From: Rhynchopus sp. YZ270_cl-10
Lineage: Eukaryota > Euglenozoa > Diplonemea > Diplonemida > Diplonemidae
NCBI GenBank assembly: GCA_964035575.1
Contig: OZ037908.1
Location: forward strand, 1,054,001 to 1,118,000
Direction of reading: 5' to 3'
Length of the DNA stretch: 64,000 nt
Made by a program: the position numbers and the translations under genes. How positions within the stretch are numbered: the first letter of the stretch is position 1; each line of letters starts with the position of its first letter. Positions 2 to 51,027 of this stretch are shown here, piece after piece. Under the pieces are notes generated by a model. It did not search any database. It saw nothing but the letters and a program-made list of their open reading frames with translations, and was not told the origin of the DNA.

Positions 2-2608
2 GATGTGTCTTTGGAGGATGTGGTGCGTGCAGGGGAGCTTGTTGCATGCAGGATGCTGGAGACAAACGAGTGGCAGGGGACTGTGGGTGTGGCGTCGGAG
101 GTTCTTGATTCGCAGCACGGTGTGTGTGAGGCTGTGCGTGATGCGTGCTTCCGCTGCCTGCCGTTCCGGATTGAGGACTTTGGGGAGGAGCGGAGTGCGT
201 TCACGTTCCGGCACAAGTCGCTTGGGGAGCACCTTGCAGCACGGCGGCTTGCACGTGATCCAGCAGGGACACTGGGGACGCTGGTGCAACGGAGCTTCAG
301 CAAGGACTCGCAGCGTGTGCTTGGGTTCTTTGCGGCGCTGGTGTGTGGAGAAAGTGGGCTGTACGAACGTGCCAGCACTGAGCTGCTTGCGGCTGTGAAG
401 GCGACACGCGGCAGTGCAGGTGGAGATGCAGGTGTTAGTGGGGAGGGTGCTGTGACAGCAGGGTCGAATGCAGCAGCACTGCTGGCACGTGCACGCATCC
501 CTGTGAGTGGGGAGGACCTGAGCGGGATCCGTGTGTCGAACTGCGACCTGCGAGGGTCTCTGTTTGTGGAGACGGCGCTGACGGGCGCTTCCTTCTCGAA
601 CTGCTGGCTGGAGCACACTGAGTTCCACACCTGCGACATGGCTGGCACGATGCTGCCGGACTGCTCCCTTGGCACACCACTTCCAGTACTACAGGATACT
701 GCCAATGGTGTGGCACTGACACCTGATGGCAGTCAAATGGTAACAGCTGGCCTTAGAACTGTGGGTGTGTGGAGCATGTCTTCTGGGGAAGAAGTGATGG
801 TCCTGAAAGGACATTCATGGCAGCTCTGTGGAGTGACAGTAACACCTGACGGAACCCGCGTAGTTTCGTGCTCCGGTGATGAAACTGTGCGTGTGTGGGA
901 TCTGCACACTGGGGAGGCAGTGTTCGTCTTGGAAGGCCACGAAGATTGGGTGTGGGATGTGGCAGTCACTCCCGACAGTTCTAAAGTTGTTTCAATTTCT
1001 CGTGATAACAGCATCCGTGTGTGGGATCTCTCGACGGGGATGGAAGTGCTGGCAATACAGTCGCCTGGCAGTCGCAGCATGGTTATTACGAAGGATGGAA
1101 GTCAAATAGTGACATGCTCTGAGGAGGAGCTGTGCGTATGGGATCTGGTCACGGGGAAGCAGGAGATGCAGTGGCCTTGTTGTGTGAATACTTCGCATAC
1201 ACTGGCAGTCACTCCCGATGGATGCCATGTTGTTTCGTGCTGTGATGGCGCACATCTTTGGAACCTCTCCACTGGGGCAGAGGTGATGGTGTTCCATGCC
1301 GACGCTGAGTTGACAGCAGTGACAGTCACTCCCGATGGATGTCACGTGGTTGCTGGATCTGAGAGCGGCAATGTGCACGTTTGGGGAATTTCGACTGGGA
1401 AGGAGGTGACGGTGTTGCAAGGGCATACTTCTTGTGTGGATGCAGTGGCAGTGTCACCAGATGGATGCCACGTGGTTTCATGCTCCGACTGCGACGATAC
1501 CGTTCGAGTGTGGAACATGACGACCGGGAAGGAGACACCAGGTTTCGAAGGACTCTTAGGCGACTCTGTGGTGGTGGCCCCTGATGGATCTATCCTTTCG
1601 TACGGTGGCAAGAGGAACTCGATCTGGAGCACATCCACCGGCAGGCAGACAGAGGTAGTCGAAGCAGGGAAAACTAAGCCTGGTGATGCTGTTGCGGCTG
1701 TGTCCCGAGATGGCTCTCATGTAGTTTATTGCCCTTCCGACGCTGGCGAAAGGAGAGCGTGTGTGTGGGACGTTGCGACGGGGAAGGTGCGGCATTTGTT
1801 CACAGATTGCAGTGAGTTTGCGGTGTTCTTGAAACAGTCTGGAAGACTGCTTTCCTTGGCAATGTCTCCCGATGCATCTCACATGGTGACCTTGTCAAAG
1901 TCTTCAGAGGAGGGTAGCACTTACTGTACCTATGTGTGGAGCATGCCGACTGGGAAGAAGGTGTCAGTTTTTGCAGGAACTACGTCATGTCCCAACCGAG
2001 CGGTAGTGACTCCTGATGGAGTGCATGTGGTTTCGTGCTATAACTATGATAACACCGTACACATGTGGAAACTTCACACTGGAGAAAAGACGATGGTGTT
2101 CAAAGGACATACTGATGATGTCTGCGACGCAGTTGTGACTCGCGATGGATCTCGTCTTGTTTCATGCTCTCGCGACAAGACTGTGCGTGTGTGGGATGTT
2201 GCCAGTGGGAAGGAGGTCCTTTCCTTGAAGCATGATGATGGGGTGATAGTGTGGAGAGTAGCACTGACACCTGATGAAGCTCACGTGGTGTCGAGTAGTT
2301 GGGACAGTGTGTATGTGTGGAGCATGTCCACTGGTGAGAAGGTGGCAATGATCAGGGCATATTGTGCTGGTTTTTCCAGACTTGCTCTGAGCCCTGATGG
2401 ACGCGAAGTGATCTGTGCTTGCAGGGACAACACTGTGCGTGTGTGGACCATCTGCACTGGGGAAGATGGCACGATTGATGGGTTGCGGCTGAAGAGAGTG
2501 ATAGGTGTCCCTCCAACAGTTCCTCGTGCATTAGGCTGTCGCAATGCTGATGCTGTGGAACCTGAACTTGCGAGACGGATTATTTGTGCTGTCGAGGAGG
2601 AGGAGTGA
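2..2608 (+). CDS. NACHT-WD40 (NLR-like) protein copy A, 3' part only
   Basis: The reading frame is open from base 2 to the TGA at 2606-2608 and continues off the left edge. It is nearly identical to 15459-18050, the C-terminal part of the complete copy at 12134, so what is missing here is the ankyrin, ART and NACHT portion. Visible parts in order are the end of the NACHT-associated helical region (to about base 480), a short pentapeptide-repeat block (about 500-650: residues of the type LSGIRVSNCDLRGSLF), and 14 WD40 repeats (about 700-2480) that end in VWDL/VWSM-type strands. Fourteen repeats fit two seven-bladed propellers. The family role is a STAND sensor whose propeller binds a trigger. 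The substitutions that separate it from the sister copy fall mostly on propeller loop positions. The C-terminus ends in EEEE instead of the GR of copy B. Role is inferred; the domain calls are secure. Confidence 0.9.
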   Translation, partial: DVSLEDVVRAGELVACRMLETNEWQGTVGVASEVLDSQHGVCEAVRDACFRCLPFRIEDFGEERSAFTFRHKSLGEHLAARRLARDPAGTLGTLVQRSFSKDSQRVLGFFAALVCGESGLYERASTELLAAVKATRGSAGGDAGVSGEGAVTAGSNAAALLARARIPVSGEDLSGIRVSNCDLRGSLFVETALTGASFSNCWLEHTEFHTCDMAGTMLPDCSLGTPLPVLQDTANGVALTPDGSQMVTAGLRTVGVWSMSSGEEVMVLKGHSWQLCGVTVTPDGTRVVSCSGDETVRVWDLHTGEAVFVLEGHEDWVWDVAVTPDSSKVVSISRDNSIRVWDLSTGMEVLAIQSPGSRSMVITKDGSQIVTCSEEELCVWDLVTGKQEMQWPCCVNTSHTLAVTPDGCHVVSCCDGAHLWNLSTGAEVMVFHADAELTAVTVTPDGCHVVAGSESGNVHVWGISTGKEVTVLQGHTSCVDAVAVSPDGCHVVSCSDCDDTVRVWNMTTGKETPGFEGLLGDSVVVAPDGSILSYGGKRNSIWSTSTGRQTEVVEAGKTKPGDAVAAVSRDGSHVVYCPSDAGERRACVWDVATGKVRHLFTDCSEFAVFLKQSGRLLSLAMSPDASHMVTLSKSSEEGSTYCTYVWSMPTGKKVSVFAGTTSCPNRAVVTPDGVHVVSCYNYDNTVHMWKLHTGEKTMVFKGHTDDVCDAVVTRDGSRLVSCSRDKTVRVWDVASGKEVLSLKHDDGVIVWRVALTPDEAHVVSSSWDSVYVWSMSTGEKVAMIRAYCAGFSRLALSPDGREVICACRDNTVRVWTICTGEDGTIDGLRLKRVIGVPPTVPRALGCRNADAVEPELARRIICAVEEEE

Positions 2609-3665
2609 GTGCACTGTTCGTACTTGCTCTTTGTGTTTGCCTCTTTTCCAAGACGAATGCAGTCTGAGTGACGAGCACGAATGGTGTTGACACTGCCTCG
2701 TGGGGTGGTGCCCTCATGCCACTGCGGGTGCGTGTGCGAGGACAGAAGAGCGGCATATTCACACATCTTTTCCAAGATGTGTTGCAATTACACATGTTCT
2801 TTGACCACTTTGTTTTTGGAGTGTCACACACTGCCACTTCCACATCTGTACACTATTCATTTCCGACTTTGCTTTTCCCTGGGGTTTGGTGTTCTTGCTG
2901 TTTCGTTTTACCAAGGTGGAGCGTTGAGGAATTCCATATTTTTGTGTTGAATGATTGAGAGTTTCAGTGTTGCGATGTGGTTCTGCTTCGATGACTGGCA
3001 TGAGGGCTGTGTGCGTGTTAACCGTTATCAAGCCCAGAATTACAAAAAGCAGTGTTTTTTCTAGAGGGGGTGCGGGGGTGCGCGCGCACCCCCGTCAGAC
3101 TTGTTTACGCCCATGCTTTTGAAAATGTGTCAGTTGGGTAACCAGGGGGGTAATAACAAATATCTACTCCACTAATCGGCTCGAGAAAAAATGTCGTAAA
3201 TTCAGAGAGGGTTGTCGTTCGGTTCAAAACGCACGTTTTGAAGCGATCTGAGCCTTTTTTGCACCTTCAAATGCGAGAATCCGTTTTTGAAAAAGTGACT
3301 TTTTGGCTGATGTTGGCTGAGGGTGTGAAATGACCATACCAGGTCCGAAAAAAATAGGGTCGATAATTTTTGGATTGGATTGGGGTTTTCAAAATAAGCC
3401 CCTCTCTCACCCCCATCATCCACCAACCCACCTCTCACAGAAACCTGCGGCATTTCCCCCCCAACGTTGAAAACTTAGCATCCCCCTTAAAAGAACACTA
3501 AACTTCTCATTCTCACATTATCCCTTCCCCTTATGACGCCTCCTTCTTGAAACCTTCCCCAAAGATTTTGAAATCTTTGGAAACTTCTTCCCTTTTTGGA
3601 GGTTTTATCAAAGCACCGTTTGGCTTTTTCTCTTTTTTTTTTTTTGTATTTTTTCCCCATTCGAC
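2609..3665. other. spacer: duplicated 3' flank plus dispersed-repeat copy
   Basis: The first ~420 bases match 18051-18480 downstream of the sister NACHT-WD40 gene, so the duplication unit includes the 3' flank. Similarity stops near 3020. Bases 3163-3240 belong to a dispersed repeat with a second copy at about 44937-45020 (shared blocks TCTACTCCACTAA and TTCGGTTC). The last 150 bases are T-rich up to the start codon of the next gene. No coding region is supported. Confidence 0.6.
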
Positions 3666-6600
3666 ATGGCACCTGATGCATGCTTCATATTTTTGGCACT
3701 GCTTTCTTCACATATCTTCTGCAATGCGGTTCTTGTATCAGTAGACACGACCATCACACTTGAGGACACGAAAGCCACCTTCCCCAGCAGCGACCGCGTT
3801 GTTTTCACTGCATACCAGGGGAACCTTTTTCTTGGCACCGAAACCGGGGTGGGTCTGCTGCTTCTTAGCCACGGCGACACGGACACACGATTCACAGAGC
3901 GTTCCGTGAGCAACACCTATGGCAGGGAAGGGGTACTCACAGCGAACATCGCTGTCGGCAGCGCCGGGGGCGTATACTACCAACTTCTCCGGGAGGGGGT
4001 GGTCTATCAGATCGACATCAGCAAGATCGTGGAGTCCGATTTCACTGCGGCGACCGTTGTGAAGGCTGCTGTCGAAACCTCGTGTACAGACATCACAGCG
4101 ACCGCAACCTGGGATAAGGTGGTGTGCGGGTCTTCCGGCATTGCAGACAGCGCGTTGAAATACGACCTCCGGACTGTCTTGAATATGATGGATGCGAGCG
4201 GGACGCCGCAACTATATTATTTCACGACAGATACGTTGTCAGGCATTGTGGACCAAACAGCACAGTGCAGTAAGGTGGCAGCACAGTTGAAAAACTACTT
4301 TTATGCGTGCGGAAAAAATGGGTTGCTACGGGTCAATGCGTATGATACTACATACGAATATACGTTGTTCTCCGCAACAGAGACGGCATCGACAGACTAC
4401 ACCGAGGTCGACTGCAACGGCGGCCTCTGCGTCGCGCTCAACTCCAAAACCATTGAACTCTGGGACGCAGATGAGTCCGGCAACACCTTCTCCACAACCG
4501 CGATCCTCTCAAGCTATCTCGTGGACGCCGCAGTCTCCGACGTTCGTCTCGAAAGCACTGCAACCTCCGTGGACACATTGCTCTACATCACCTACATCTC
4601 CTCCGGCCACATCTACTTCCTTTACATCGCAGACAAACACAAAATGGTTCTCGAAAAGGTTCTAAAATGCGACTCCTGTGAATACCACGGCGCGCTTCTC
4701 CTAGGGGATTGGATGTACACAAAACGGCAGGAGGAGGCAACAAAAGAGTGGAAGGTGTCTGCACGGAAGCTTCTTTTGTCTGGCTCTTTAACCCCATGGG
4801 TGGATGGGGTAATCAGCGTTTCTGGGTCGGATTTTGTGTATGAAAACAAATCGCGGCTTGCGACGGACAAAGATGGAAACCTCGCTGCCACCATCGGGTC
4901 TGTGGTGCATGGTAGCATACTGTACGTCGCAGCAGGGGTTGGTATGGAGCAGTACTCCATCCCAGACTATCAGACCACCTTCACCTCTCTTGGCACGGCA
5001 TCCCCTCGGGAAACCACATCCATCACGCTTCTCAAGAAGGTCGAGCATGCAGGGGTGTGGTACCTTCTTGAGGTCCACGGAACCAGAATTGTCATTCTCA
5101 AATTAACCGAATCTGGTTCAACCGCGTTTCTTACGGTACAACCTTCTGCGACAGCGAATGTGATGGGGGTCGCAGTGTTGGACGGTGCATTGTACGCTAC
5201 CGGGGCGGATACAAAAACGTTTACTCCGTGCAGATATCCCAATGTGTTTACTGCGGTGCAGTCTGGGTGCATTGCGATTGTTCGGCCGACCGTAACGTAT
5301 ACGGGGTGTGGTGAAACAGATGTATCCCCGGCAACCAATTTGCTGTACATACCGTGCACCTCTGGTGTCGTAATATGGTCCGCTTCGGCTGAAACCGAAA
5401 CCTTTGCGAAGACCACAACGTACGACGCGGTGCGCTGCCACGCAGCGCTGTGCTATGCATGGGGTGGGACCACAGTGGATGTCTGGGACGCTACGCAAAG
5501 TGATTTGACATACCTCACCCGGATGCCCGCCTTTCCCGACACCGTCGTCGACACTGCCGTTGACACCGAAGACAGCAACCCTGGAATATTTCTCGTTGCA
5601 ACAACCAATGCAGTGTATTACTTCGCCACCTCCGACCGCAAGGAGATTACCAGCAAGGCCTTACCCGACGCTGCCTCTGTGTATTCTATGTCGCTTCTCG
5701 GTGGTCAAATATTCTTTTTGATATATTACACCCAAGCGGACTCATATTGTCGATACCAGGAGGTTACGGTGTATCCTTCGTCCTCAGTACCTACCGACGC
5801 TCCAGAGACAAACCCTCCAAAGACCCAACCACCCCCGACGTTAACCCCAACAGACGCACCACCGACACCATCACCACCGATCCCCCCGACCGAGACCCCG
5901 CCTATCCCCCCTACAGACCCGCCGATGACAGCGGCACCTCCCACAGAGAGCCCGCCAACGGAGGCGCCTTTGACTATGGCACCGGAGACAGAGGCGCCGA
6001 AGAAGATTCCTGAGAAGACGGTGGCGCCGGAAACGGCGCCACCGTTAACCCTCGCTCCGACAGATGCACCACCGACCGATCCACCCGAGACACCAATCCC
6101 GCTCACCCCGACCCCTCCGTTGTCGCAGCTTGCCGGCTTCTCTCCGGTGGTTCCAGAGGTGGCGACGCTCGCTGCGCTGATTGACCGCGAGGTGGCTGCA
6201 GTGCAGGGCGCCTTAGATGCGGACGACCTGAACACCGCAAAGAAACTCTACTCTACAGGGTCGAACGCATATTTGGGGGTGCAAACCTTAAAGGATCTTG
6301 CAATGGGAGTGATTGGGGAGAGCCCTACTTTCACCTTATACTCAGAGCATTGGGGGTCAGTGGAGTACGCAGACCACTACATTTCAGATGCCCTGGAAGG
6401 TACCGGGAGGTATACCAGAGCGCCTTCTGTTGCCAGATCTGCCGCAGCGAGGTCTGGGGTGCGACTGCATGCAATCTGGATGGGGGTGGTGCGAGAAGTG
6501 GAAACAGCGGGCTCTCTTTGCAACACTACAGGGCAACTCCATCTGGACAGAGCGTGGGGGTACTACGCCGGATCTTTGGAAGGCGCCGTCGGAGCTGGTC

Positions 6601-9428
6601 TTGGCATTCAAATCAAAGCTTTGTCCGAAGAGATCGGATGGTATTATGGTGTAAAAGGAGGACCCAGAAAAACTGCGTCGGTGACGGATGACGTTCTCGC
6701 GCTTTTTCTCTCCGCGCAAAAGCTTCTGCAGGAGAAACGGTGTCCAGAGGTGGCTGGGGTGGTGAAAAAGATTGTGTCGCAGCTGACGGTGCCTCTTCTG
6801 CAGGGGGTAGTGCACTATGCTCATAAGGTGGCGGGAAGTGCGGGGCGGGGTGCAGAGGTATTGCAGGACCCGCAGCAAAGCAAGGCGTTTGCGTGGTCGT
6901 ACACGGCGGCGGTGTTGCCGTTGGTGCGGAGGTGCAGCCGGTTTGCAAGCGATTCCTTGCAACTCTACCTCGCATATGACAGTACAGAGTCCCTACGTGA
7001 CGGTGTCGGCCAAATTGTCTCCACCTTAGAAACTGTCTACCAATGTCTCGGTGTGAAGTGCAGTGAGGTAGGTGGGCATTTTGCGGGTAGTGGGATGGAT
7101 GCATATGAAGGTGGTATCGTGCCCTGTACGGACCCGACCCTGCCGCCCGCAGTGAAGGCGATGCAGCTGCGTGTCGAGGCTAGTGCCGTCGCGTCCTCGA
7201 AGATTCACGAAGAGGAGGAGGGCCTGCAGTTTAGTGTGTTCGTGGATGGGACGCACCTTGGTGTGCCAGATGGTCGTGTGCAGGTGGAGATGGGGTGGGA
7301 AGGTGCAGCAAGCTTGCAGCGTGGAGGGCAAACCTGCATGGGGTATCCTTGCGTGACTTTGGTATGGAAAAAAATGAGAGTTTTCTTTTGTCACCTTGTG
7401 AAGGAGGAAATAGAAACAAAGCATTTTGAACACACTCTGCGGTTCTGAGGGACGAACCGCGCTGCAGCCCACGCCTTTCCAAACCTTCACCCACAACCTC
7501 CCCCATTGTGTGATGAGTCTTAACGTTTCTGTTTCTCAATTTAAAACAAAACACATCCAACACAAACAACAGAAAACCAACACAAACCCTTCTAAGTCTC
7601 CGCGAGGCAGTGCAGCAACGTCGCTACGCAATTCTGGGTTTGCCTTGGCAACGGTATACACTTGCAAACCTTCCCTTTTCATTGACAACAGCAAAAACCC
7701 CCCACCACCCCAATACAGATCACAACCCTCACCACCACGCTCTCCGAGGTGCGCATTGTGCTGAAGGATGCGAACTTCCGTGCCTATTCACCGCTGTCCG
7801 AGCAGCTCACAGTACGACTCTCCAAATGGGCGTTCCTCGAGGAGGAACGGGAGGCCATCTGCAGCATCTCCGCCCTCTGTGACTGTGACACCCCTATGGG
7901 CGGCTGCACCTTACAGGTTACCTTGAAAAGCCAACGACCGTTGGAGACGCTAGGAGAAAGCGTTCCCGAAACAGCGCGGGCCCCAGCCGCAGCTACGGTG
8001 CTGGCGGCAAGCACATTACTCCCTGCGTCTGCAAATGCGGGAGCGGGTTTTGTGAGATTATCGGTTTTGACAAAAATCGCGCTTTGCCCGAACACAGAGG
8101 AGGATGAGATTGACCCTACCCTGAACCCTTTGGGGCTCAGATTTGGCTCGAAAAACCGTGAAGCAAATGGCGCTGTTGTAGGGTCAGAGGTGTTAATTGG
8201 GGGGCTTCTGGTGTTGTGTTTCTTCGCAGTGTTGGTGTTGTATAGCTGCAGGCGGATTTCCGACCCTGATAAGGTGGACCACACTTTCGCCACCCTTCCC
8301 TCCACACTCAATGCAATACCGCATGCCATGGCCAAAGCGAGGCTCGGATGGATCATAGTACCAGTATCCTTCCTCTATGGGGGTGCGGTCGCAGCGGGGT
8401 TCGGTGCGATCCTTTATTCAGAATTTTTATATCAGATTTTGGGTGCTGTTGATGTGGTGTTAGGTGTTACCGTGCCGGTGTATTGTATATTCGCGCTTCG
8501 GAGGATAACACAAAACACAACGTATGTTACTGAAGAGAGAAAATCGTTTGAGGCGGAGGTGAGAGGAGGAGGGGTTGAAGCTGATGGGAGAAGCTGTGTA
8601 CGGCGTGCGGTCTCTTTAATGGGGTGGGGCTGCGGGACGGAATGGATACCATGTGATGGGAAAGAGGATTGGTTTGATCTACATCACCTATTATTTGATG
8701 GGTATTCGCGGAGATGCCGTTTTTTTGCGGTTTTTGAACAAATGTTGACCATTCTTCTCGCTGCAGTTTCCGCTTGGGAGCCCGAAACCCGAACCGACTG
8801 TCGTACCCAAGGATACGCAGCGGTTTCCCTTCTCGGCATTCTGTTCCTCTCTCTCGTGGGGCTGCGTCCGTACCTTGCGCCGTATGAGACCTTAATGGAT
8901 AGTCTGGTTGCAGGAGTGGAAGCTGCGATGATGGTGTGTGTGCTTGTCTCTCTCAAGGTTGAGGATCCGGCAGGGCATTGGTCGGTGGAGGCGGTTCCAA
9001 CACTACAGCAAGCTGCACTGATCCTGATTTTATCAAAATTCGCGCTGGATATGACGATTTTTGTCATAGACGAATACCAGACGTGGTTGGAGTCTCGGAG
9101 AACCCTGCCCTTCATTTTACACCTCTTTTGCGGCTGCTGGGCCTCTGACTACATCCCAATCGAGCACGAAGACTTCTCCGTTCAGGTAGACTTCGACATC
9201 GTTCTGAAGGGGGGAACAGATGAAAGAGGGGGTGTGGAGGAGGAAGGGGAGGAGGGCGGGAAGCATTCCAAAGAAGGGGGCGGGAGCACGCTGAGCTGCG
9301 GGGGGTCGCAGATTCGGATGCTGGAGCTGAGCGACAGTGGGGTGGATGGGGGGTGCACGCTGCACAGCCCGACAGCAGGGTGGCCCCAGCAGAAGGGCGA
9401 GACGAACATATTGCTGACGTCCCCATGA
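3666..9428 (+). CDS. giant surface protein 1 (signal peptide, propeller, P/T stalk, FEA-like domain, 7 TM)
   Basis: Three exons are supported by comparison with the paralogues at 24762 and 51028: 3666-7361, 7573-7653 and 7719-9428, all phase 0, giving about 1828 aa. The introns are 211 and 65 bp with donors GTATGG and GTATAC and acceptors ACAG. The start is the first ATG before a hydrophobic signal peptide (MAPDACFIFLALLSSHIFC). Residues ~25-700 contain two related halves, each with a C-x5-C...WDA block (VDCNGGLC...IELWDA; VRCHAALC...VDVWDA), probably a propeller. Residues ~700-820 are a Thr/Pro-rich stalk. Residues ~823-1165 are a helical domain with [13 protein letters not shown] and VPLLQGVVHYAH, resembling algal FEA proteins. 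A beta domain with Cys spans the exon 1-3 junctions. Seven hydrophobic helices follow (about 1410-1715), then an acidic, Gly-rich tail. Function is unknown; a surface receptor or metal/nutrient binder is inferred. Confidence 0.85.
7362..7572 (+). other. intron 1 of giant surface gene 1
   Basis: The donor GTATGG follows the codons for PCVTL and the acceptor CAACAG precedes the 81-nt exon. The position and phase 0 are identical in all three paralogues. Translation through the intron gives a short non-conserved tail and a stop, which supports removal. Confidence 0.8.
7654..7718 (+). other. intron 2 of giant surface gene 1
   Basis: A 65 bp intron with donor GTATAC and acceptor ATACAG. It follows the 27-residue exon that carries AATSLRN, conserved in all three paralogues. 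Exon 3 begins ITTL, as in gene 2. Confidence 0.75.
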
Positions 9429-12133: not shown

Positions 12134-18050
<5,917 letters not shown>

Positions 18051-21629: not shown

Positions 21630-22819
21630 ATGGAGCTGTGCGTAAAGACCTTTGACAACGAGACGTACGTGATTGAGGTGGGTGTGGACGACACAGCTGC
21701 GGTCATGCGGCGGAAGGTGGCGTCTGCAGTGGGGTTGCCTGAAGACGGCTTCCACATGAGGTTCGGAGGGGAAGCGCTGGGAGCAGGAGCGGACATGGCA
21801 CAGCTGAGTGTTGGGGACACAATTGAGTTGACGAAAACGGAGAGGTACGATATAGTAGCAGCGCTTCACGCATTGGGTGAGACGGACATCACAGCAGAGC
21901 GGCTCGATACTGTGGAGGATCCTGAGGTGGCGTGTTTGCTTCTGCAGGCGGGGGTTGTGACTGTCATTCCCGATGAGTTCTTGACCTTAGGATCCTTCAC
22001 CGAACTTGACCTGGGTGTTGAGTTGCCCGTTACTGTGGTTGGAACTGGTTTCTTACGCAGTGCACCTCGTTGACAAGAATCGACATCTCAGGGTTGTGCA
22101 ATGTCAAGAAAATTGGTCGGGGGTTTTTGTATGAGTGCTACTCATTGTCAACAATCGATATCTCAGTGGTGTGCAATGTCACAGACATTGGTGGCTGCTT
22201 TCTCCAAGGTTGCTTCTCGCTGACTGCAATCGATCTTTCAGGGTTGTGCAATGTCACGAAAATTGACCATCGTTTTCTCTCTGACTGCACCTCGTTGTCA
22301 GCGCTCGACTTGTCAGGGTTGTGCAATGTCACGGAGATTGGTTTCGGCTTTCTCAGCGAATGCACTTCGTTGACAACAATCGATCTGTCAGAGTTGCGCA
22401 ATGTCACGAAGGTTGGTTACGAGTTTCTTTCGCTCTGCATCTCGTTGACAACACTCAACCTCTCAGGTTGGTGTCATGTCACTGACATCGGTGACAGCTT
22501 TCTCAACAACTGCACCTCGTTGACAACAATCGATCTGTCAGAGTTGCGCAATGTCACGAAGGTTGGTTACGAGTTTCTTTCGCTCTGCATCTCGTTGACA
22601 ACACTCAACCTCTCAGGTTGGTGTCATGTCACTGACATCGGTGACAGCTTTCTCAACAACTGCACCTCGTTGACAACAATCGACCTGTCAGGGTTGCGCA
22701 GCCCCAATAAGGGATATCTTGGGCAGTGCCACGCACTGTCAACAATCGAGGCTGCAGTGTGCCCCCAGAGCACTGCTCGCATAGTACGGAGCCCACATGG
22801 GGTGGTGCCTCTCCTATGA
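21630..22819 (+). pseudogene. ubiquitin-like/LRR protein copy A, frameshifted
   Basis: ATG 21630 opens a 147-residue frame with a ubiquitin-like N-terminus (MELCVKTFDNETYVIEV...), almost identical to copy B at 23419. It stops at 22071 because one base is missing near 22059: restoring register continues the Cys-Thr-Ser-Leu repeat start directly into the frame 22070-22819. That second frame holds about nine 25-residue LRRs of the form C-S-L-x-x-I-D-L-S-G-L-x-N-V-x-x-I-G-x-x-F-L. Two consecutive repeats (150 bp) are duplicated almost exactly at 22381-22530 and 22531-22680. The last repeat is degenerate. It is a pseudogene unless the base is a sequencing error. The LRR type is BspA-like (LRR_5). 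Confidence 0.8.
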
Positions 22820-23418: not shown

Positions 23419-24321
23419 ATGGAGCTGTGCGTAAAGACTTTTGACGACGAGACGTACGTGATTGAGGTGGGTGTGGACGACACAGCTGCGGTCATGCGGC
23501 GGAAGGTGGCGTCTGCAGTGGGGTTGCCTGAAGACGGCTTCCACATGAGGTTCGGAGGGGAAGCGCTGGGAGCAGGAGCGGACATGGCACAGCTGAGTGT
23601 TGGGGACACAATTGAGTTGACGAAAACGGAGAGGTACGATATAGTAGCAGCGCTTCACGCATTGGGTGAGACGGACATCACAGCAGAGCGGCTCGATACT
23701 GTGGAGGATCCTGAGGTGGCGTGTTTGCTTCTGCAGGCGGAGGTTGCGACTGTCATTCCAGATGAGTTCTTGACAGCAGGATCCTTCACCGAACTTGACC
23801 TGAGTGTTGAGTTGCCTGTTACTCAGGTTGGACACAGCTTTCTTGAGTGCTGCACCTCGTTGACAACAGTCAATTTCTCAGGGTTATGCAATGTCACGTC
23901 TCTCGGTGCTAACTTTCTTGCTGAGTGCGACTCGTTGACAACTGTGGACCTCTCAGGGTTGTGCAATGTTGCGTACGTTGGTGGTTATTTTCTCGTTGGC
24001 TGCACCTCGTTGACGACAATCGACCTTTCAGGGTTGCGCAATGTCAGGGAGATTGGCTACGGCTTTCTCTCTGACTGCACCTCGTTGGCAACACTCGACC
24101 TGTCAGAGTTGCGCAATGTCAAGCAAATTGGTTGTAACTTTGCCAAGAGCTGCACCTCGTTGACGACGGTCGACCTCTCAGGGTTGCGCAATGTCGAGAC
24201 AATTGGCGGGTCCTTCTTTCGTAGCTGTTCCTCGTTGGTAGCAATCGAAAAGCCCTCGCCCTGCAGTGAAGCTCTGTCCAGTGCGGTCTTTGACAGCGGG
24301 CGTAAGGCATATTTGCTGTAA
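23419..24321 (+). CDS. ubiquitin-like/LRR protein copy B
   Basis: Intact 300-aa frame from an ATG in an A-rich context. Residues 1-72 have the beta-grasp pattern of ubiquitin (initial strand MELCVKTF, helix VMRRKVASAVGL, then MRFGGEAL, closing strand TIELTKT). Residues ~75-125 are a helical linker (ALHALGETDITAERL). From ~140 there are five 25-residue BspA-type LRRs and a short cap (AIEKPSPC). There is no signal peptide or membrane helix, so it is probably cytosolic. It may be an adaptor or binding protein; the ubiquitin-like fold lacks a C-terminal GG, so conjugation is not expected. It sits directly after the damaged copy A and upstream of giant gene 2. Confidence 0.85.
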   Translation: MELCVKTFDDETYVIEVGVDDTAAVMRRKVASAVGLPEDGFHMRFGGEALGAGADMAQLSVGDTIELTKTERYDIVAALHALGETDITAERLDTVEDPEVACLLLQAEVATVIPDEFLTAGSFTELDLSVELPVTQVGHSFLECCTSLTTVNFSGLCNVTSLGANFLAECDSLTTVDLSGLCNVAYVGGYFLVGCTSLTTIDLSGLRNVREIGYGFLSDCTSLATLDLSELRNVKQIGCNFAKSCTSLTTVDLSGLRNVETIGGSFFRSCSSLVAIEKPSPCSEALSSAVFDSGRKAYLL

Positions 24322-24761: not shown

Positions 24762-27700
24762 ATGATATGGCGCGGGCGTGGTGCGCTGCTGTTGTGCCTG
24801 GTACTTTGCACCATCTCCACAGCGACTCCGTTGGTCGACCTCTGCACAACCGAACAATGCAGGGGACAGTTGGACGTCACCGGGAGTAGATACGCTTCCA
24901 CTGCAGACAGCCTGGTCGCGCTGGGCGCGCCGGATCAGGGTGTTGTTTCTCTTATCGACACGAACACTGGGGAGACAAGAACGATCAAGGTGGTGGTGAA
25001 CTCTGTGTCGCTTTCCCCTGCTGGAGCATGGCTTGCGGTCACGACGTCCTCGGGAGAGGTCTGTGTATGGGCGACGGATGACCTGCGAGCACCACGCTTC
25101 AAGGCACGCATCCTCGGGGAAACGGTGCTGTCGCAGGTAGCCTTTTCGCAGGACGGACGCTACCTAGCTGTAGCGACGCCCACTGCAGTGCATCTCCGCA
25201 ACGCATCTTCAGGCACCCCGATCTCCATCCTCCAGGGTGCCGGTTGGGCGTCGACCCCCCTGGTTTCTTTTTCCCCCGACAGCTCCCTCCTCGCCTCCGG
25301 GGACTCAGTGTGGGAGACAGAAAGCTTCCTCCGTACGACACGGCATTCAAAAGGGGAGGCCTCGTTGACGTCGCTGCAGTTCCGTGATGAGGACACTCTT
25401 GTCTGTGCATGGGATAATGGGGAGCTCATCTGGGTTAGTACAGCGGATGCAACCACGCTACGCAAGGAAACATTCACACCGGGAAAGCTGCTGTTGTCGG
25501 AGGGTGGGGAAGAGCTGGCGGAGGTGGGGCCAAAAGGGGTGCGTATCTTCTCGGTGCGTGCGGAGGTGGTGGTCACAGCGGTGCTCGCGGAGAACAGCAC
25601 CACTGCGCTCGCGTTCATGGAAAACTCGACACTCATCTGCTCTCTCGAGGGGTGTCTGCTGTGGGGCCCTACACCCGCCCCTGTAAGCATTGGCACGCCA
25701 CGGCAACGTACGATGGAGACACTGCATTATGTAGACATGGCATACGCCCTGGGGCATATGTTTGTCGGGACCGTCGACGGAATGGAGGTTCTAGACTGTC
25801 GTGGGACCACACCGACGAGCGATTCACGTCTCCGCCCGACGCGCATGCAAAGCTTTACTTCGAGCATGGGAACCGGCGATGTGCACACCATGAAGACCAT
25901 CGCGTTGGACACGAGAACAACATATCTGTATCTGCTGCGCGGGACACATTGTTATGTCGCTGATGTGTCTGGCGTGGAGGGCCGCCTCTGGGATAATCCT
26001 GGAAGAAGCCGCGAGGCCCGCACGCCGTACAACGAAGAGATCGTGCTGCTTGATGTGGCGCCGATGCCGTCGCAGGGGAAGGTGTTCTTTGTGTCGAACC
26101 GCACCTCGTCCTACAAGAACCAGTATGAGTTTTGGGTCATGTCGGGGACAGCGGTGCTGGCAAATGCGGACCCCTTTCTGGTCGAGAAGGAAGCTGCGCA
26201 CGACCATTTCTGCCGCAGTGTGTCTGCGTCGGGGAACGTTCTCTTTGCGGCATGTGGCGGGCACGGCCTGCTCAGGGTGCACTTCTACAATGGGCATACC
26301 CAAGCGTTGCTGGAGCCGGACGTCGGGTTTGTCTCCTCAGTGCGTGTAGGGCGGGCCCCGCAGTATACTTCGGTGGACTGTGATGGGCCGGTGTGCGTGG
26401 TGCTCAACGGCGAGGTGATTGAGCTGTGGGATGCTTCCGTGCGGGGCCATGTGTACCTCAAAGGGCATATGCACAGCTCATTCGACGTCCAGGCGAAGGT
26501 GCTTAGTGTGCGTCTAGCGGGCGACCACGTGGTGTACTCTTCCCAAGGTGGAATCCATTTTCTGAACATTCGCGACAAATTTAGAATGCACAAAGAAGCT
26601 ACGTCATGCACACAGTGCACCGCAGACGCGGCGTTTCTGCGCTCCGGGGTGCTGGCGTCGATCAGCAGAGGTGATTCCGATGTCACTCTCGAGGCCAGAA
26701 CGGTGTCGCTCCCCAAGGCGCCAAGCCTGATCCCGGAGAACCAGTTGGCAGTAGCTGCGGAGCGTTCGCTTACCCTGCAGCGCAAGCACTTCCGCCACCA
26801 CGTTGTGCACAAGGGGACAATCTACGTCGCAGATAACAGCATGTTGCTTGTGTTCACGTACACCAAGGGGGTGCTGGAGAAGGTGTCTGAGGTGGCGACC
26901 CTCCCCTCTAGTCAGAGCATCGCGTTTCTGCGGCTACTGCGACACGAAGGACACTGGCGGCTTGTTGTGGGCAAGGTCGGCGGGTTCAACTTCTACCTTC
27001 TGGACAGCCCTAACCACCCGGAGCTGGTGGTCCTGGACGACACCTACATCTCCCTGCGCAACCAGGTGTCGGACGTTGCGGCAGTCGACAGCAGGCTGTA
27101 CGTCGCCTACCCAAACGGACGATACGACGACTGGAAGATCGGTGTGACGTACGGCGGGTTATGCCGTCTAAGCACCGAATGTTGCGGAGTGACGTGCGAA
27201 AGAGAGACCACGACGTGGCATCCTGGGCGGTGTTCCTCAATTGCCGCATACGGGACGAACATTCTGTTTGCCTGCGGGGACTTTGGTGTGGTGGCATACA
27301 ACACTGTTGCCGATATTTTAACTTACTTTCAGCAGGAAGTCAGAGGCGATCTGGGCCCCGCAGATTCAGTACACTGCCAGGCCGGGTACTGCTACGTCGT
27401 GAGCGGCAGCATCCTTCAGGTGTGGGACGCAACGGAAACCCATTTCACTAAGACAGAACTGAAACGCACGCTCTCCTGGGACCAGGCTGTTCTCTCCGTC
27501 GCCACAGACCCGCAGGGGAGCCCACAGTACTTCGCGGTGCTCGCAGGCAGCACTGTTGCGGTTCTGACCCTCTCCGGCAAGCAGCTTCTCTCCTTCACCG
27601 TCCCCAATGCGTGGCGTGTAACCATCACCGACGGCGTCTTGGTTGTCGCACAACAGGATGTCGGCTCAGAGACGCTTCTCTTCTATGATCTCACCGTGTA

Positions 27701-30700
27701 CGACGCAACCAGGACGCCAGCCACAGAGGCACCAAAAACACTTAAACCATCTGTGGAGGACACAGCAGTGCCGCCTTCTCGTCCGACAGATAAGCCCGCT
27801 GTAAGGAAAACTGCGGTTCCAACAGAGGCACCACGCACCAAGGTGCCGAAGACAGCCGCTCCAACGGCCCCGCCCACTGAGGTGCCCATCGTGACAGCCT
27901 CGCCCACTGAGGTTCCTCCGTGGAGCACTGAGGTACCACAGAGCCGCACCACCACCACCCCCACGACAGCCTCCCCGCCCACAGAGCCCCCAGCGACAGA
28001 GCCCCCAGCTACGGAGCCCCCACCCACGAAGCCCCCAGCGACGGAACCACCACCAACACCCCCGCCAGCAACGGAACCACCCACAGCGCCGCCGCGCACT
28101 GCAGAGCCAACCGCGACCCCGACCCTCGCTCCGCCGAAGACCACAGTGGCACCCCCCAGCACTTCCGCTCCAACGGAAGGCCCGCTTATTTTCACTGAGG
28201 TGCCGCTTGTCACAGAGCTTGCAGGATACACTCCGCAGAAGCGTGAAGAAGCGACGCACGCAGCACGCATAGACCTTGACGTGCTTGCGATTCATCAGCG
28301 TTTGGAAGCATACGACCTCGCTGCGGCACGGCAGATCTACGAGAACGGGGTCAGCGGCGGGCGCACACTACGCGACCTCGCACAGGACCTCGCTGACGGA
28401 CACAGCGAGACATTCCTGGAGTACGGTGCCTTCTGGGGGTCGACTGCCTTCGCAGACACGCTACTGCGTGATGCATTCGAAGGGCGTGGGGATTTTTCAC
28501 GAATTTCTGTTGCCGGAAGGGTCGAAGCTGTGCGGTACGGTGTCATGCAGGTCACCTGGCTGTCTGTGGTGAAAGAGGCGGAGTCTGCTGTGAAGGAATG
28601 CAGCGGAGGAGGGGTGTCGGGAGACGCAGGTCTGGACAGCTTGGACCGTGCTTGGGGGTATTATGCGGGGTCCCTAGCAGAGAGTGGAGGGGTGCAGGTC
28701 ATGGCGTTTGCGACGCAGATGGGTGCCCTCTTTGGGAGCGATATCACCACCAGAATGCTGCAGCTCTTTAATACCGCACAGCAGCTGCTCCTGCAGGGGC
28801 GTTGCTCAGGGGTGGAGGAGGCTGTGCGTGCGGTGCGATCACAGCTTGTGGTCCCGCTGCTTCAGGGGGTCTTGCACAATGTGAACACCGTGGTCGCGCT
28901 TCGGACAGAACAGCGTGGTGGTGTGGTGCTGCAGGCTGAAGACGAGGAGGTTGGGTTGTCAGCAGCATGGACCCTCGCCAGCACGGCGCTCCCCTTGGCA
29001 AGCATCTGCTCCCGCCCTGCGGCAGATTCACTACAGTGGCAGCTTTCATTGAGAGGATCCCCACTTAAAGATGGTGTTGAACCGGTGAGATCTGTGTTGG
29101 AGTCTCTCTATGGCTGTCTAGGGGTGCGTTGTGCAGAGGTGGGGGCGCTCAATGGAACTGTGCAGTCGTGTTCCGATGGGGCAGGGGTCTTTGCACGTAA
29201 GGAGATCGGCTTTGCAATGGACAGTGAACGCCTCGGGGCAAAGGGGATCTATGAAGATGAGGGGCTTGTGTTTGGGGTGGTGTTGGAAGGGGCGCGTGTA
29301 GGTGTGCCTGATGGAGATGTGCTGGTGCAGGTGGCGTGGAAAGGTGGGGCAGGCCTGCAGAGAGGGGGGGGGCTGTGTGGTGTTCATCCGTGTATTACCT
29401 TGGTATGTTTGTTTGGTGAATGCTTAGGTTCATCTGCTTTTTTGGCAGGATATAGTGTCGTAGGCAGGTTGAAACCTCACAAAAAAGTAGTAATGAAAAG
29501 GAACGTGGCGATTGCACAACTGTTGGCACACACAACCGAGGCTACACTACTCCATCAATGTATCACAAAAATACAACAGGTCACCGACACCCACCCTGCC
29601 GACGCCACCAACGGCATTGCAGCCACATCACTGCGCAACGCAAAGTTCATCCGTGCTACGGTATGTGAGGTTTTTTCTCCTCACCCCCCCTTGCTTCATG
29701 TCTCTCTGACACTATCTGACGCTCAAACAAAAAAGCATAGTTTATGACAAAATGCTATTTTATTTTCAGATCTAAACCACGAAATATGAACTGCATGGTT
29801 GCGATCCACACACACCCGCATCATTGCAACCTACGGTACAGGGTTTTTTTTTGTATTTCAATCCCCAAAAAATTATCTTTTTTTTAGTACCACCACCCAC
29901 ACCACACCCCAGATCACAACCCTCTCCGACCACACCGCTGCCATCTCCATCCGCCTGCAGGATCCTTCCCTGCGTATCTACCTCCCAGACCGCGAGCAGC
30001 TTCGTGTCGTCCTCTCTGTTGAAGCGTTTACACCGATGGACCGGGGAGGGGTGTGCGAGGCAGGGGTCTGCAGTTGCGACGACGGCGACGGGACGATCCC
30101 CCCTCCTGGCTGCACCGCAAGCATCACCATCTCTGGCGAGCCGCCTCTTGAAGACCTCACTACACCAGAAGTGCTTGCCACACGCGCCGGCGGTGCTGCC
30201 GCTGTCGTCGCCGTCAGCGCTGTGCTCCCTGCTTCTGCGACCACAGGAGGAGCTTTGGTGCGCCTCGCCATTCTCTCAAAAATCGCGCTTTGTCCTGAAC
30301 CCGAAGACGAAGACGAAGAGGACGACCCGACCCTCAACCCCCTCCGCCTGCAGCTCGGCAAAACCAACCAAGACACAAACGGGGCAGTAGTCGGTGGACT
30401 TATCATTGTTGCCACATTTATTGTACTGTGCGTCATTGCATTGCTCTTTGTGAGGCAATGTGTGTCACGAAACCACGTGGTCTCACTGAATAATGACATT
30501 GTCAGTCGCCGTACCCCCATGGCGCTCATGGCAAGAGCCAGGTTTGGGTGGTTAGTGGTTCCCGTTTCGTTTCTCTATGGAGGCGCTGTTGCAAGCGGGT
30601 TTGGCAGTATCATGTACTCCGATACGTTGTATAAGGTTGTCGGTGTTGTTGATGTGGTGCTTGGTGTGTTGGTTCCGGTCTACACCTTGATTGCACTGCG

Positions 30701-36639: not shown

Positions 36640-38172
36640 ATGGAATTGGTGATACAGGGCTTCAGGAAGGAGTACGTGATGGAGGTGGGTGAGGATGACA
36701 CAACGGAGACGATGCGGCAGAAGGTGGCATCTGCAGAGGGGTTGTGCGAAGACAGCTTTCTTATGAGTTTTGGAGGGAAGGACGAAGGAGAGGACATCAC
36801 AGAACTGAGTGCTGGGGACAAAGTCGTGTTGACGAAAACACCGAAATTCGAGGCCATCACAGCACTACACGCTTTGGGTGAGAAGGACCTCACTGCAGAA
36901 AGGCTGGGGCAGGTGACAGATCCGAAGGTGGCTGGCTTGCTCCTTCAGGCAGAAGTTGCGACTGCGATTCCAGATGACTGCTTTTCACATACTGCAGTGA
37001 CGCGCATTGGTTTCGGTTGTGTGTCCGCTGCGGATGACGACTGTGGCATCACACTGGACCTGCCTGCCTTGCCCTGCGTCACCACAATAGGGAACAGGGT
37101 ACTCAGCGTGTGCACGACGTTGTCGACAGTGGACCTCAGCGGCCTTCAATCACTCACTGCGATTGGGAACGATTTCCTCCACGGGTGCACTGCATTGAAG
37201 ACAGTAGACTTCTCCGGCATGCGAGCAGTCACCACAATAGGAAACATGTTTCTCCGCGACTGCACTACGTTGTCGACGGTCGACCTCAGCGGCCTTCAAG
37301 CAGTCACTGCGATTGGGAGCAGGTTTCTCTCCGGGTGCACGTTGTTGACAGTAGACTTCTCCGGCCTGCGAGCAGTCACTACAATAGGGCCCAGGTTTCT
37401 CTGCGGGTGCACGGCGTTGTCGGAAGTAGATTTCAGTGGCCTGCGATCACTCACTGCGATTGGGAACTGGTTCCTCTCCGAGTGCACAGCGTTGGCAACT
37501 GCCGATTTCACTGGCCTGCAATCAGTCACTACGATTGGGACCAAGTGTCTCTACGGATGCACGATGCTGTCGACAGTGGACCTCAGTGGCCTGCAATCGC
37601 TCAGTGTGATTGGGGACTGGTTTCTCCCCGAGTGCACCACGTTGTTGACAATCGATCTCAGTGGCCTGCAATCACTCACCGCGATTGGGGACAGGTTCCT
37701 CTACAAGTGCACAGCGTTGGCAACTGTCGACTTTACTGCCCTGCGATCACTCACTGCGATTGGGACCAAGTGTCTCTACGGATGCACGATGTTGTCGACA
37801 GTCGACATCAGTGGCCTGCAATCGCTCACTGTGATTGGGGACTGGTTTCTCTCCGAGTGCACGACGCTGTCGACTGTCGACTTCACTGGCATGCAATCAC
37901 TCACTGCGATTGGGGACTGGTTTCTCTACGACTGCAGCACGTTGTCGACTGTCGACCTCAGCAGCCTGCACGCAGTCACTGATATTGGGAACAAGTTCCT
38001 CTACGACTGCACAATGTTATCGACAGTGGACTTCACAGGCATGCAAGCAGTCACCACTGTTGGGCACGACTTCCTCTACAATTGCACTTCATTGCAGACC
38101 GTACACGGCAAGGACACATGCAGCAACGTTTTACTCAGGAGGGTCGTGATCGTGGGTAACAGGGGGAAGTAA
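36640..38172 (+). CDS. ubiquitin-like/LRR protein copy C (13 repeats)
   Basis: ATG 36640 in the context CAAAATGG; 510 aa. Residues 1-67 are a ubiquitin-like fold (MELVIQGFRKEYVMEV, helix TMRQKVASAEGL, MSFGGK, KVVLTKT). A helical linker follows (ITALHALGEKDLTAERL), then a less regular repeat with Cys, then 13 repeats of 24-25 residues (C-T-x-L-S-T-V-D-L-S-G-L-Q-x-L-T-x-I-G-x-x-F-L) and a cap. The N-terminal half is essentially identical to copy D at 41325 and more distant from copies A/B. No signal peptide or membrane helix. It forms a two-gene cassette with the membrane protein at 38788. Probably a cytosolic binding protein; function not known. Confidence 0.88.
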   Translation: MELVIQGFRKEYVMEVGEDDTTETMRQKVASAEGLCEDSFLMSFGGKDEGEDITELSAGDKVVLTKTPKFEAITALHALGEKDLTAERLGQVTDPKVAGLLLQAEVATAIPDDCFSHTAVTRIGFGCVSAADDDCGITLDLPALPCVTTIGNRVLSVCTTLSTVDLSGLQSLTAIGNDFLHGCTALKTVDFSGMRAVTTIGNMFLRDCTTLSTVDLSGLQAVTAIGSRFLSGCTLLTVDFSGLRAVTTIGPRFLCGCTALSEVDFSGLRSLTAIGNWFLSECTALATADFTGLQSVTTIGTKCLYGCTMLSTVDLSGLQSLSVIGDWFLPECTTLLTIDLSGLQSLTAIGDRFLYKCTALATVDFTALRSLTAIGTKCLYGCTMLSTVDISGLQSLTVIGDWFLSECTTLSTVDFTGMQSLTAIGDWFLYDCSTLSTVDLSSLHAVTDIGNKFLYDCTMLSTVDFTGMQAVTTVGHDFLYNCTSLQTVHGKDTCSNVLLRRVVIVGNRGK

Positions 38173-41324: not shown

Positions 41325-42560
41325 ATGGAATTGGTTATCCAGGGCTTCAGGAAGGAGTACGTGATGGAGGTGGGTGAGGATGACACAACGGAGACGATGC
41401 GGCAGAAGGTGGCATCTGCAGAGGGGTTGTGCGAAGACAGCTTTCTTATGAGTTTTGGAGGGAAGGACGAAGGAGAGGACATCACAGAACTGAGTGCTGG
41501 GGACAAAGTCGTGTTGACGAAAACACCGAAATTCGAGGCCATCACAGCACTACACGCTTTGGGTGAGAAGGACCTCACTGCAGAAAGGCTGGGGCAGGTG
41601 ACAGATCCGAAGGTGGCTGGCTTGCTCCTTCAGGCAGAAGTTGCGACTGCGATTCCAGATGACTGCTTTTCACATACTGCAGTGACGCGCATTGGTTTCG
41701 GTTGTGTGTCCGCTGCGGATGACGACTGTGGCATCACACTGGACCTGCCTGCCTTGCCCTGCGTCACCACAATAGGGAACAGGGTACTCAGCGTGTGCAC
41801 GACGTTGTCGACAGTGGACCTCAGCGGCCTGCAATCGCTCACTGCGATTGGGAACGATTTTCTCTCCGAGTGCACAGCGTTGAAGACAGTAGACTTCTCC
41901 GGCATGCGAGCAGTCACCACAATAGGGAACAGGTTTCTCTACGGGTGCACGGCTTTGGCAACTGCCGACCTCACCGGCCTGCAATCACTCACTGCGATTG
42001 GGGGAAAGTGTTTCTGCGGGTGCACCACTTTGTTGACAGTCGATCTCAGTGGCCTGCAATCACTCACTGAGATTGGGGACAGGTTCCTCTACAAGTGCAC
42101 GACGTTGGCAACTGCCGACCTCAGTGGCCTGCGATCACTCACCACAATAGGGAACAAGTGTCTCTACGGATGCACGGCGTTGTCGACAGTGGACATCAGT
42201 GGCCTGCAATCGCTCACTGTGATTGGGGACTGGTTTCTCTCCGAGTGCACGACGCTGTCGACTGTCGACTTCACTGGCATGCAATCACTCACTGCGATTG
42301 GAGACTGGTTTCTCTACGACTGCAGCACGTTGTCGACTGTCGACCTCAGCAGCCTGCACGCAGTCACTGATATTGGGAACAGGTTCCTCTACGACTGCAC
42401 AATGTTATCGACAGTGGACTTCACCGGCATGCAAGCAGTCACCACTGTTGGGCACGACTTCCTCTACAATTGCACTTCATTGCAGACCGTACACGGCAAG
42501 GACACATGCAGCAACGTTTTACTCAGGAGGGTCGTGATCGTTGGTAACAGGGGGAAGTAA
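41325..42560 (+). CDS. ubiquitin-like/LRR protein copy D (9 repeats)
   Basis: ATG 41325; 411 aa. The ubiquitin-like domain and linker (residues 1-~140) are identical or nearly so to copy C, while the repeat array has nine 25-residue units against thirteen in copy C, and several units are shuffled or hybrid. The last four units and the cap are again nearly identical. This pattern points to unequal exchange within the array. There are no membrane or secretion signals. It heads the second cassette, followed by the membrane protein at 43998. Confidence 0.88.
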   Translation: MELVIQGFRKEYVMEVGEDDTTETMRQKVASAEGLCEDSFLMSFGGKDEGEDITELSAGDKVVLTKTPKFEAITALHALGEKDLTAERLGQVTDPKVAGLLLQAEVATAIPDDCFSHTAVTRIGFGCVSAADDDCGITLDLPALPCVTTIGNRVLSVCTTLSTVDLSGLQSLTAIGNDFLSECTALKTVDFSGMRAVTTIGNRFLYGCTALATADLTGLQSLTAIGGKCFCGCTTLLTVDLSGLQSLTEIGDRFLYKCTTLATADLSGLRSLTTIGNKCLYGCTALSTVDISGLQSLTVIGDWFLSECTTLSTVDFTGMQSLTAIGDWFLYDCSTLSTVDLSSLHAVTDIGNRFLYDCTMLSTVDFTGMQAVTTVGHDFLYNCTSLQTVHGKDTCSNVLLRRVVIVGNRGK

Positions 42561-50910: not shown

Positions 50911-51027
50911 ACCCACCTCCTCCACTTTTTGTTGTCTTCCTTTGCACCTCGCCCCCCTCGCCACAACACCCCCTCTCTCACCCCCTCTCTCACCCCCTCT
51001 CTCACCCCCTCTCTCACCCCTCAGCAA

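Follow-up and report, generated by a model that had tools for sequence, protein, structure and literature searches.

Why do two otherwise closely similar genes differ mainly in parts of their WD40 repeats? The question is raised by a stretch of 64,000 nucleotides from the diplonemid Rhynchopus sp. YZ270_cl-10 (contig OZ037908.1, here C76; C76:1054001-1118000), called the window below, in which two genes with C-terminal WD40 arrays lie near one end. The first-pass annotation of the window proposed that the differences reflect diversifying selection on recognition. Both genes belong to a family that combines an ADP-ribosyltransferase (ART), a NACHT/STAND-like NTPase and 14 WD40 repeats, and across 18 paralogues positive selection falls on particular positions of the WD40 repeat. 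The products are probably cytosolic receptors of the NOD-like receptor (NLR) type, with a double WD40 propeller as sensor, diversifying selection on its top-face ligand-contact surface, the NACHT/STAND-like module as switch and the ART as output.

The WD40 register was drawn by hand on the translation, with G3-H4 and D26 aligned to the numbering of the fungal protein HET-E. The d-a loop and the b-c loop, named after the strands they join, are together called top loops. The parts of the two genes, in window coordinates, are as follows.

2..2608, plus strand: 3' part of gene 1, with the end of the NACHT module, a pentapeptide repeat, 14 WD40 repeats and the tail; open reading frame (ORF) cut by the window edge
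680..2476, plus strand: gene 1 WD40 array, whose 14 repeats are taken as two groups of seven (Pfam PF00400, 185.7 bits; register by hand, ends checked)
818..829, plus strand: gene 1 repeat 2, d-a loop, positions 6-9, WQLC (gene 2: ERIS)
941..946, plus strand: gene 1 repeat 3, d-a loop, positions 5-6, ED (gene 2: KI)
1490..1498, plus strand: gene 1 repeat 7, b-c loop, CDD (gene 2: YDG)
2111..2116, plus strand: gene 1 repeat 12, d-a loop, positions 5-6, TD (gene 2: PS)
2171..2173, plus strand: gene 1 repeat 12, b-c loop, R (gene 2: C)
2423..2425, plus strand: gene 1 repeat 14, b-c loop, R (gene 2: D; all three bases changed)
12134..12286, plus strand: gene 2 start (MGSGASKPEK...), matching gene 1 in all 51 residues (start pattern at C76:1066134)
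12466..13321, plus strand: (ACA)n tract of about 285 units in gene 2, between the ankyrin and ART parts
13365..18050, plus strand: longest ORF of gene 2 under translation table 11 (ART, NACHT/STAND-like module, pentapeptide repeat, 14 WD40 repeats)
13863..14171, plus strand: gene 2 ART domain with FRG, STT and ExE motifs (PF01129, 25.6 bits, cut-off 22.3)
14643..15215, plus strand: gene 2 NTPase resembling NACHT and nSTAND1, both scores falling short of the Pfam cut-offs; its Walker A is GEGGSGKTS and its Walker B LVLDSLDE
15972..16082, plus strand: gene 2 pentapeptide repeat (PF00805, 22.4 bits, cut-off 20.2)
16137..17927, plus strand: gene 2 WD40 array, 14 repeats (Pfam PF00400, 175.9 bits)

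The open frame of gene 1 spans C76:1051266-1056608 (within locus L011); its start codon, at C76:1051293, lies 2.7 kb before the window, and the full protein has 1771 aa. The layout of the family is an MGSGASKP start, ankyrin repeats (PF12796, 35.6 bits in gene 1), ART, NACHT/STAND-like NTPase, pentapeptide repeat and 14 WD40 repeats, the last being C-terminal repeats that form a superstructure, as in NLR and STAND proteins. We take the start to be an N-myristoylation-like motif, and a hydropathy scan of the gene 1 protein found no membrane segment. The exact start pattern was found at 67 sites in the genome (152.4 Mb in 126 contigs), 36 of them on contig C21, and the reversed control at none; these are start sites rather than verified genes, and variants such as L009 and L029 escape the pattern. 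FRG, FTSTT and EDE stretches, carrying the FRG, STT and ExE motifs, are conserved in 23/24 aligned genes, the exception being L022. They are presumably the R, S-T and ExE motifs of arginine-type (R-S-E) ADP-ribosyltransferases, and together with the profile match of gene 2 they make the predicted effector an ADP-ribosyltransferase of that type by both family match and motif. Walker A and B motifs are present in 24/24. Pfam scans of the N-terminal parts listed ankyrin, ART, STAND-type and pentapeptide families and no HET domain. The single PADLOC match, HEAT-ARM_XIII, fell in the WD40 part.

The motif pairs quoted in the first-pass annotation (GHSWQLCGV against GHSERISGV and the others) were confirmed in both translations. 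Over the shared parts of genes 1 and 2, 79 codons differ, 64 non-synonymously (end and gap codons counted) and 15 synonymously. By Nei-Gojobori counting the ratio of non-synonymous to synonymous change (dN/dS) was 0.25 in the NACHT end and pentapeptide repeat and 0.18 in the C-terminal tail; in the WD40 region it was 1.74, which exceeds 1 only at a one-sided p of 0.03. The changes were unevenly spread, as had been claimed: 36/177 compared codons changed amino acid in the top loops, as opposed to 15/420 elsewhere (odds ratio 6.9, p 3e-10). The 51 codons at the positions under selection in HET-E held 15 of the 51 amino-acid changes, a number reached by none of 598 circular shifts of the position mask (nearest, 14). 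Synonymous differences were also denser in the loops (proportion 0.071, against 0.016 elsewhere). Clustering is therefore by itself no proof of selection, which is supplied by codon models of the family.

For these models 25 family sequences were read, gene 2 included. A 20-gene core was formed by omitting L017, L018 and L022 (divergent), L027 (duplicate of L026) and L026p (partial), and removal of L024 and L030, whose WD40 part is disrupted, left 18 genes. L026 (C21:1490759) and L027 (C21:1503674) lie 12.9 kb apart and carry the same two genes in matching places; the complete gene of each gives 100% protein identity after rounding. Seventy WD40 places were listed from a scan that scored 150 of 2642 candidates, and 20 of the 70 were read, two of the other 50 being partly covered by L026 and L027; a further scan scored 30 of 961 candidates. 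Codon likelihood fits used pooled codon frequencies over 14 repeats. Pooling was preferred because, in per-position fits, class-specific frequencies inflated omega implausibly where positions are conserved.

In HET-E positive selection acts at WD40 positions 7 and 9, in the loop between strand d and strand a, and at 25 and 27, in the b-c turn (PMC1805685). Pooled across the 18 paralogues, these four positions (51 codons) had a dN/dS (omega) of 3.70, with a likelihood-ratio statistic (LRT) of 76.9, and positions 6, 7, 9 and 25 reached 5.46 (LRT 122.5). Taken singly, omega was 8.1 at position 6, 7.8 at 7, 3.3 at 9, 3.05 at 10 and 5.4 at 25, which exists in 9/14 repeats (LRT 14.5-47 for these five). 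Position 27 was weaker (1.8, LRT 4.7), and positions 5 (1.6, LRT 2.8), 8 (0.73) and 26 (1.9, LRT 2.7) were not significantly above 1. The remaining WD40 region gave 0.93 when pooled, the remaining d-a loop codons 0.99, the four strands 0.98-1.24, and the turns of the bottom face 0.38 (AB) and 0.66 (CD, LRT 3.3). Omega was 0.15 in the ART and 0.44 in the NACHT part. Diversifying selection at the sites named by the first-pass annotation is thus supported, with omega above 1 at particular positions. Its description of the variable sites as the hypervariable positions of HET-E was right for the HET-E four. The quoted examples at positions 5-6 fall outside them; of these two, position 6 is hypervariable here and position 5 is not significant. 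Judging by the WD40 register and by the HET-E model of PMC1805685, the selected positions would lie on the top face of the propeller.

The result held under several changes of data. On the ART and NACHT tree instead of the WD40 tree the HET-E four gave the same answer (omega 4.48, class-specific frequencies). Their omega was 2.94 (LRT 47.5) when all four C76 genes were removed and 3.97 (LRT 48.0) in the ten C21 genes only; repeats 1-7 gave 4.45 (LRT 46.2) and repeats 8-14 gave 3.16 (LRT 31.7). In the three distinct C76 arrays taken together the HET-E four had hardly any synonymous differences, so that omega ran to the limit of the search (LRT 21.9), and the remainder of the array gave 1.46 (LRT 1.7). 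Codons differing by a single base, counted in six disjoint close pairs at the six hypervariable positions, comprised 103 non-synonymous and 11 synonymous differences. The non-synonymous fraction was 0.904 against 0.765 expected (p 1e-4), and 0.683 against 0.73 in the rest of the WD40 region.

A second WD40 family was treated by the same procedure. At least 13 genes of this family, mostly on contig C47, share a conserved pattern of 30 bases, and nine were analysed.

L001, L002, L008 and L034-L039, on contigs C47, C42 and C8: second-family genes analysed

Their layout is a signal-peptide-like start, seven WD40 repeats and a Pro/Thr-rich stalk. In the two of the nine that were scanned for hydropathy, L001 and L008, three hydrophobic segments follow the stalk, and the N-terminal stretch rose above threshold only in L008. 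These genes would encode cell-surface receptors, to judge from this layout. The HET-E four had an omega of 3.0 (LRT 20.1), position 8 had 0.51, position 26 0.36, the strands 0.92 and the AB and CD turns 1.0; positions 6 and 9 were not significant singly (LRT 2.4 and 2.3). It is conceivable, and we put it forward tentatively, that the organism holds a two-compartment repertoire built on one hypervariable WD40 surface, with cytosolic ART-NACHT proteins (67 start sites) and separate membrane-anchored receptors (at least 13) diversified independently at the same positions and with loop mutation or micro-conversion adding to selection.

The proteins may serve some purpose other than immunity, as allorecognition or mating-type factors or as adhesion or signalling proteins that co-evolve with some internal partner. 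Among systems with these positions the best studied is HET-D/HET-E of Podospora anserina, which serves allorecognition and recognises HET-C (PMC1805685). The 67 start sites suit a broad repertoire better than a single partner, and no evidence here separates the two; we consider a non-immune role rather unlikely. The first-pass annotation had also likened the arrays to fungal incompatibility NLRs. The likeness holds for the C-terminal WD40 sensor in an NLR-type protein (PMC1805685, PMC12222747), for the selected positions 7, 9, 25 and 27 with position 8 unselected in both, and for a gene family with genetic exchange; a 2025 paper models reactive HNWD alleles as a double propeller (PMC12222747). 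It fails elsewhere. ART, ankyrin and pentapeptide parts take the place of the HET domain, position 6 is selected here in addition, and there are 67 start sites as opposed to a 10-member family. The WD40 repeats within one gene share a mean of 33% amino-acid identity (1637 comparisons, maximum 62%), compared with more than 80% in the fungal genes. Because the HET domain and the internal repeat conservation do not match, the family was not placed with HET-D/HET-E.

Among other systems, fungal NLRs share the effector-NOD-repeat layout and are described in PMC4986451 and PMC9815663 as carrying repeats (WD, ANK or TPR) whose binding surfaces are under positive selection. The string ADP-ribos- is absent from the main text of both papers, so that neither describes an ART effector by that name. 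Bacterial NACHT/nSTAND1 sensors diversified by diversity-generating retroelements (DGRs) are STAND NTPase receptors, as the proteins here are predicted to be, and also concentrate their variation in the sensor; they differ (PMC10907252) in that the variable fold is a C-type lectin and the change is adenine-directed, whereas here WD40 loops vary and every type of change occurs. The papers searched (PMC8195603 among them) yielded no account of a comparable ART-NACHT-WD40 family, which is weak evidence of absence, as subscription literature lay mostly outside the search. The best sequence match among solved structures was 2YMU, a bacterial WD-40 repeat protein (E 6e-88), which differs in that its aligned repeats are nearly identical to one another. 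Its 577-residue chain is not known to contain an NTPase or ART.

The equivalent repeat is 74% alike on average across genes, and this, set against the 33% within a gene, argues against repeat homogenisation of the HET-E type. Shuffling of repeats between blades was ruled out, as the nearest neighbour in another gene kept its repeat index in 252/252 cases. The WD40 sensor and the ART/NACHT parts have conflicting histories, each tree being rejected by the data of the other (approximately unbiased test, p 8e-4 and 1e-34, 18 genes). A chimaeric copy is present in the assembly in a tandem array on C76, whose 9.8 kb units are A (L009), B (L010) and C (gene 1). B equals C across 6.35 kb, a stretch that runs from the point 3 kb upstream where the comparison began as far as ORF base 3350. 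From ORF base 3115 onward B equals A until the comparison stops, 3 kb downstream, with a 236 bp overlap common to all three; the spacer between A and B is identical to that between B and C (4497 bp each). The simplest reading of these sequences is that B is the product of one recent unequal crossover between codons 1029 and 1108, before the WD40 array, which would have joined the effector half of C to the sensor half of A. The chimaeric copy and the identical tracts might instead be assembly artefacts, with variation in the family partly due to mixing of haplotypes. An assembler could walk the loop through the shared 236 bp once too often, and gene 2 loses its reading frame close to a long microsatellite. 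This explanation is unlikely; 126 contigs for 152 Mb suggest long reads, and the selection result is independent of copy B, persisting without the four C76 genes.

A local mutational process, such as hypermutation, micro-conversion or a retroelement-type mutator, might write the loop changes, with selection secondary. At fourfold synonymous sites in amino-acid-invariant columns the difference was 0.148 within 3 codons of hypervariable codons (14 columns) and 0.065 at 5 codons or more (57 columns; p 0.018); in invariant NACHT columns it was 0.034 (119 columns). This rise may reflect either linked variation of long standing that selection has maintained or mutation acting locally. About half of the changed hypervariable codons in six pairs differed at two or three bases (110 multi-base, 114 single-base). 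Twelve neutral simulation runs, with multi-nucleotide events set at 0, 30 or 60%, produced omega of 0.99-1.57 and LRT of at most 16.2; the eight runs at 30 or 60% gave 1.20-1.57 and LRT 2.3-16.2, far under the observed values. Multi-nucleotide mutation alone was ruled out by these simulations, in which omega did not exceed 1.57. The changes in seven pairs covered each of the six types and each codon position (94/412 at third positions), unlike the adenine-only change of a DGR. Adenine-targeted DGR mutagenesis was ruled out by the six change types, a reverse transcriptase or template never having been searched for. None of 173 distinct 12-base loop strings recurred at a different repeat index. 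A local process as the main author of the loop changes is therefore improbable.

Relaxed selection on surface loops that are merely less constrained is very unlikely, because omega above 1 (3.7, LRT 77, at the HET-E four and 5.46, LRT 122, at positions 6, 7, 9 and 25) is beyond the reach of relaxation and because the bottom-face turns, which are loops likewise, have low values in the main family, even though surface loops tolerate change, the other d-a loop codons and the pairwise top-loop ratio are near 1, and the AB and CD turns of the second family, at 1.0, are not low.

Several points weigh against diversifying selection on an NLR-type sensor. When genes 1 and 2 are compared by themselves, the top loops as a whole had an omega of only 1.60, and the rest 1.14. 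Omega exceeded 1 at position 10, in strand a, and at position 1 (3.4, LRT 4.6), both outside the HET-E four. Plain pairwise counting over all pairs of the 20 genes ran in the same direction more weakly, with a median of 1.17 in the top loops (ratio of means 1.02), 0.82 in the strands and 0.51 in the bottom turns; the ratio of non-synonymous to synonymous proportions was 2.27, 1.80, 1.60, 1.71 and 1.54 at positions 6, 7, 9, 10 and 25, 2.29 at position 30, and only 0.94 at position 27. The codon model was our own implementation, neither HyPhy nor PAML, and the family sequences recombine, a possible distortion of site tests. The NTPase of gene 2 scored 13.9 bits for NACHT (Pfam cut-off 26.7) and 20.9 for nSTAND1 (cut-off 27.1). 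Finally, the start of gene 2 is out of frame with its ART-WD40 ORF, the break lying upstream of the ART, and because the two frames differ gene 2 may be a pseudogene or mis-assembled.

Elsewhere in the window, ORFs 3666-7448 and 24762-29747 are long and have a hydrophobic signal-like start; each has a Fea1-like domain (PF07692, 34.7 and 31.4 bits, cut-off 25), and weak matches to propellers fall in the N-terminal part of the second. Tandem 75-bp units occur at 22049-22700, 23849-24206, 37090-38054 and 41775-42442; the last two encode BspA-type leucine-rich repeats and the first two are similar in appearance. A long Pro/Thr-rich coding repeat (53137-55766) within ORF 50929-57144 had no match in a Pfam scan. 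Outside the window, ribosomal protein L3 was found at four loci, L033 (C39) and C78, and in each the end of the gene matched separately, as though an intron followed roughly residue 330.

If these proteins are cytosolic receptors of the NLR type, as we favour, the double propeller would act as the sensor, and positions 6, 7, 9, 10, 25 and, more weakly, 27 would form its ligand-contact surface, diversifying recurrently on a conserved propeller framework. Upon recognition the NACHT/STAND-like module would oligomerise as the switch and turn on the ART output, leading to ADP-ribosylation or NAD loss and probably to a defence or cell-death response. The N-myristoylation-like start may target the protein to membranes, and unequal crossing-over in tandem arrays could generate new pairings of sensor and effector. 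Hypervariable WD40 sensing is understood from fungal NLRs, whose repeats are nearly identical. Here the same positions are selected where the repeats are mutually unlike and the effector is different, and again in a second family that is built differently. These results suggest that the top face of WD40 propellers serves eukaryotes generally as an antibody-like scaffold for innate recognition.

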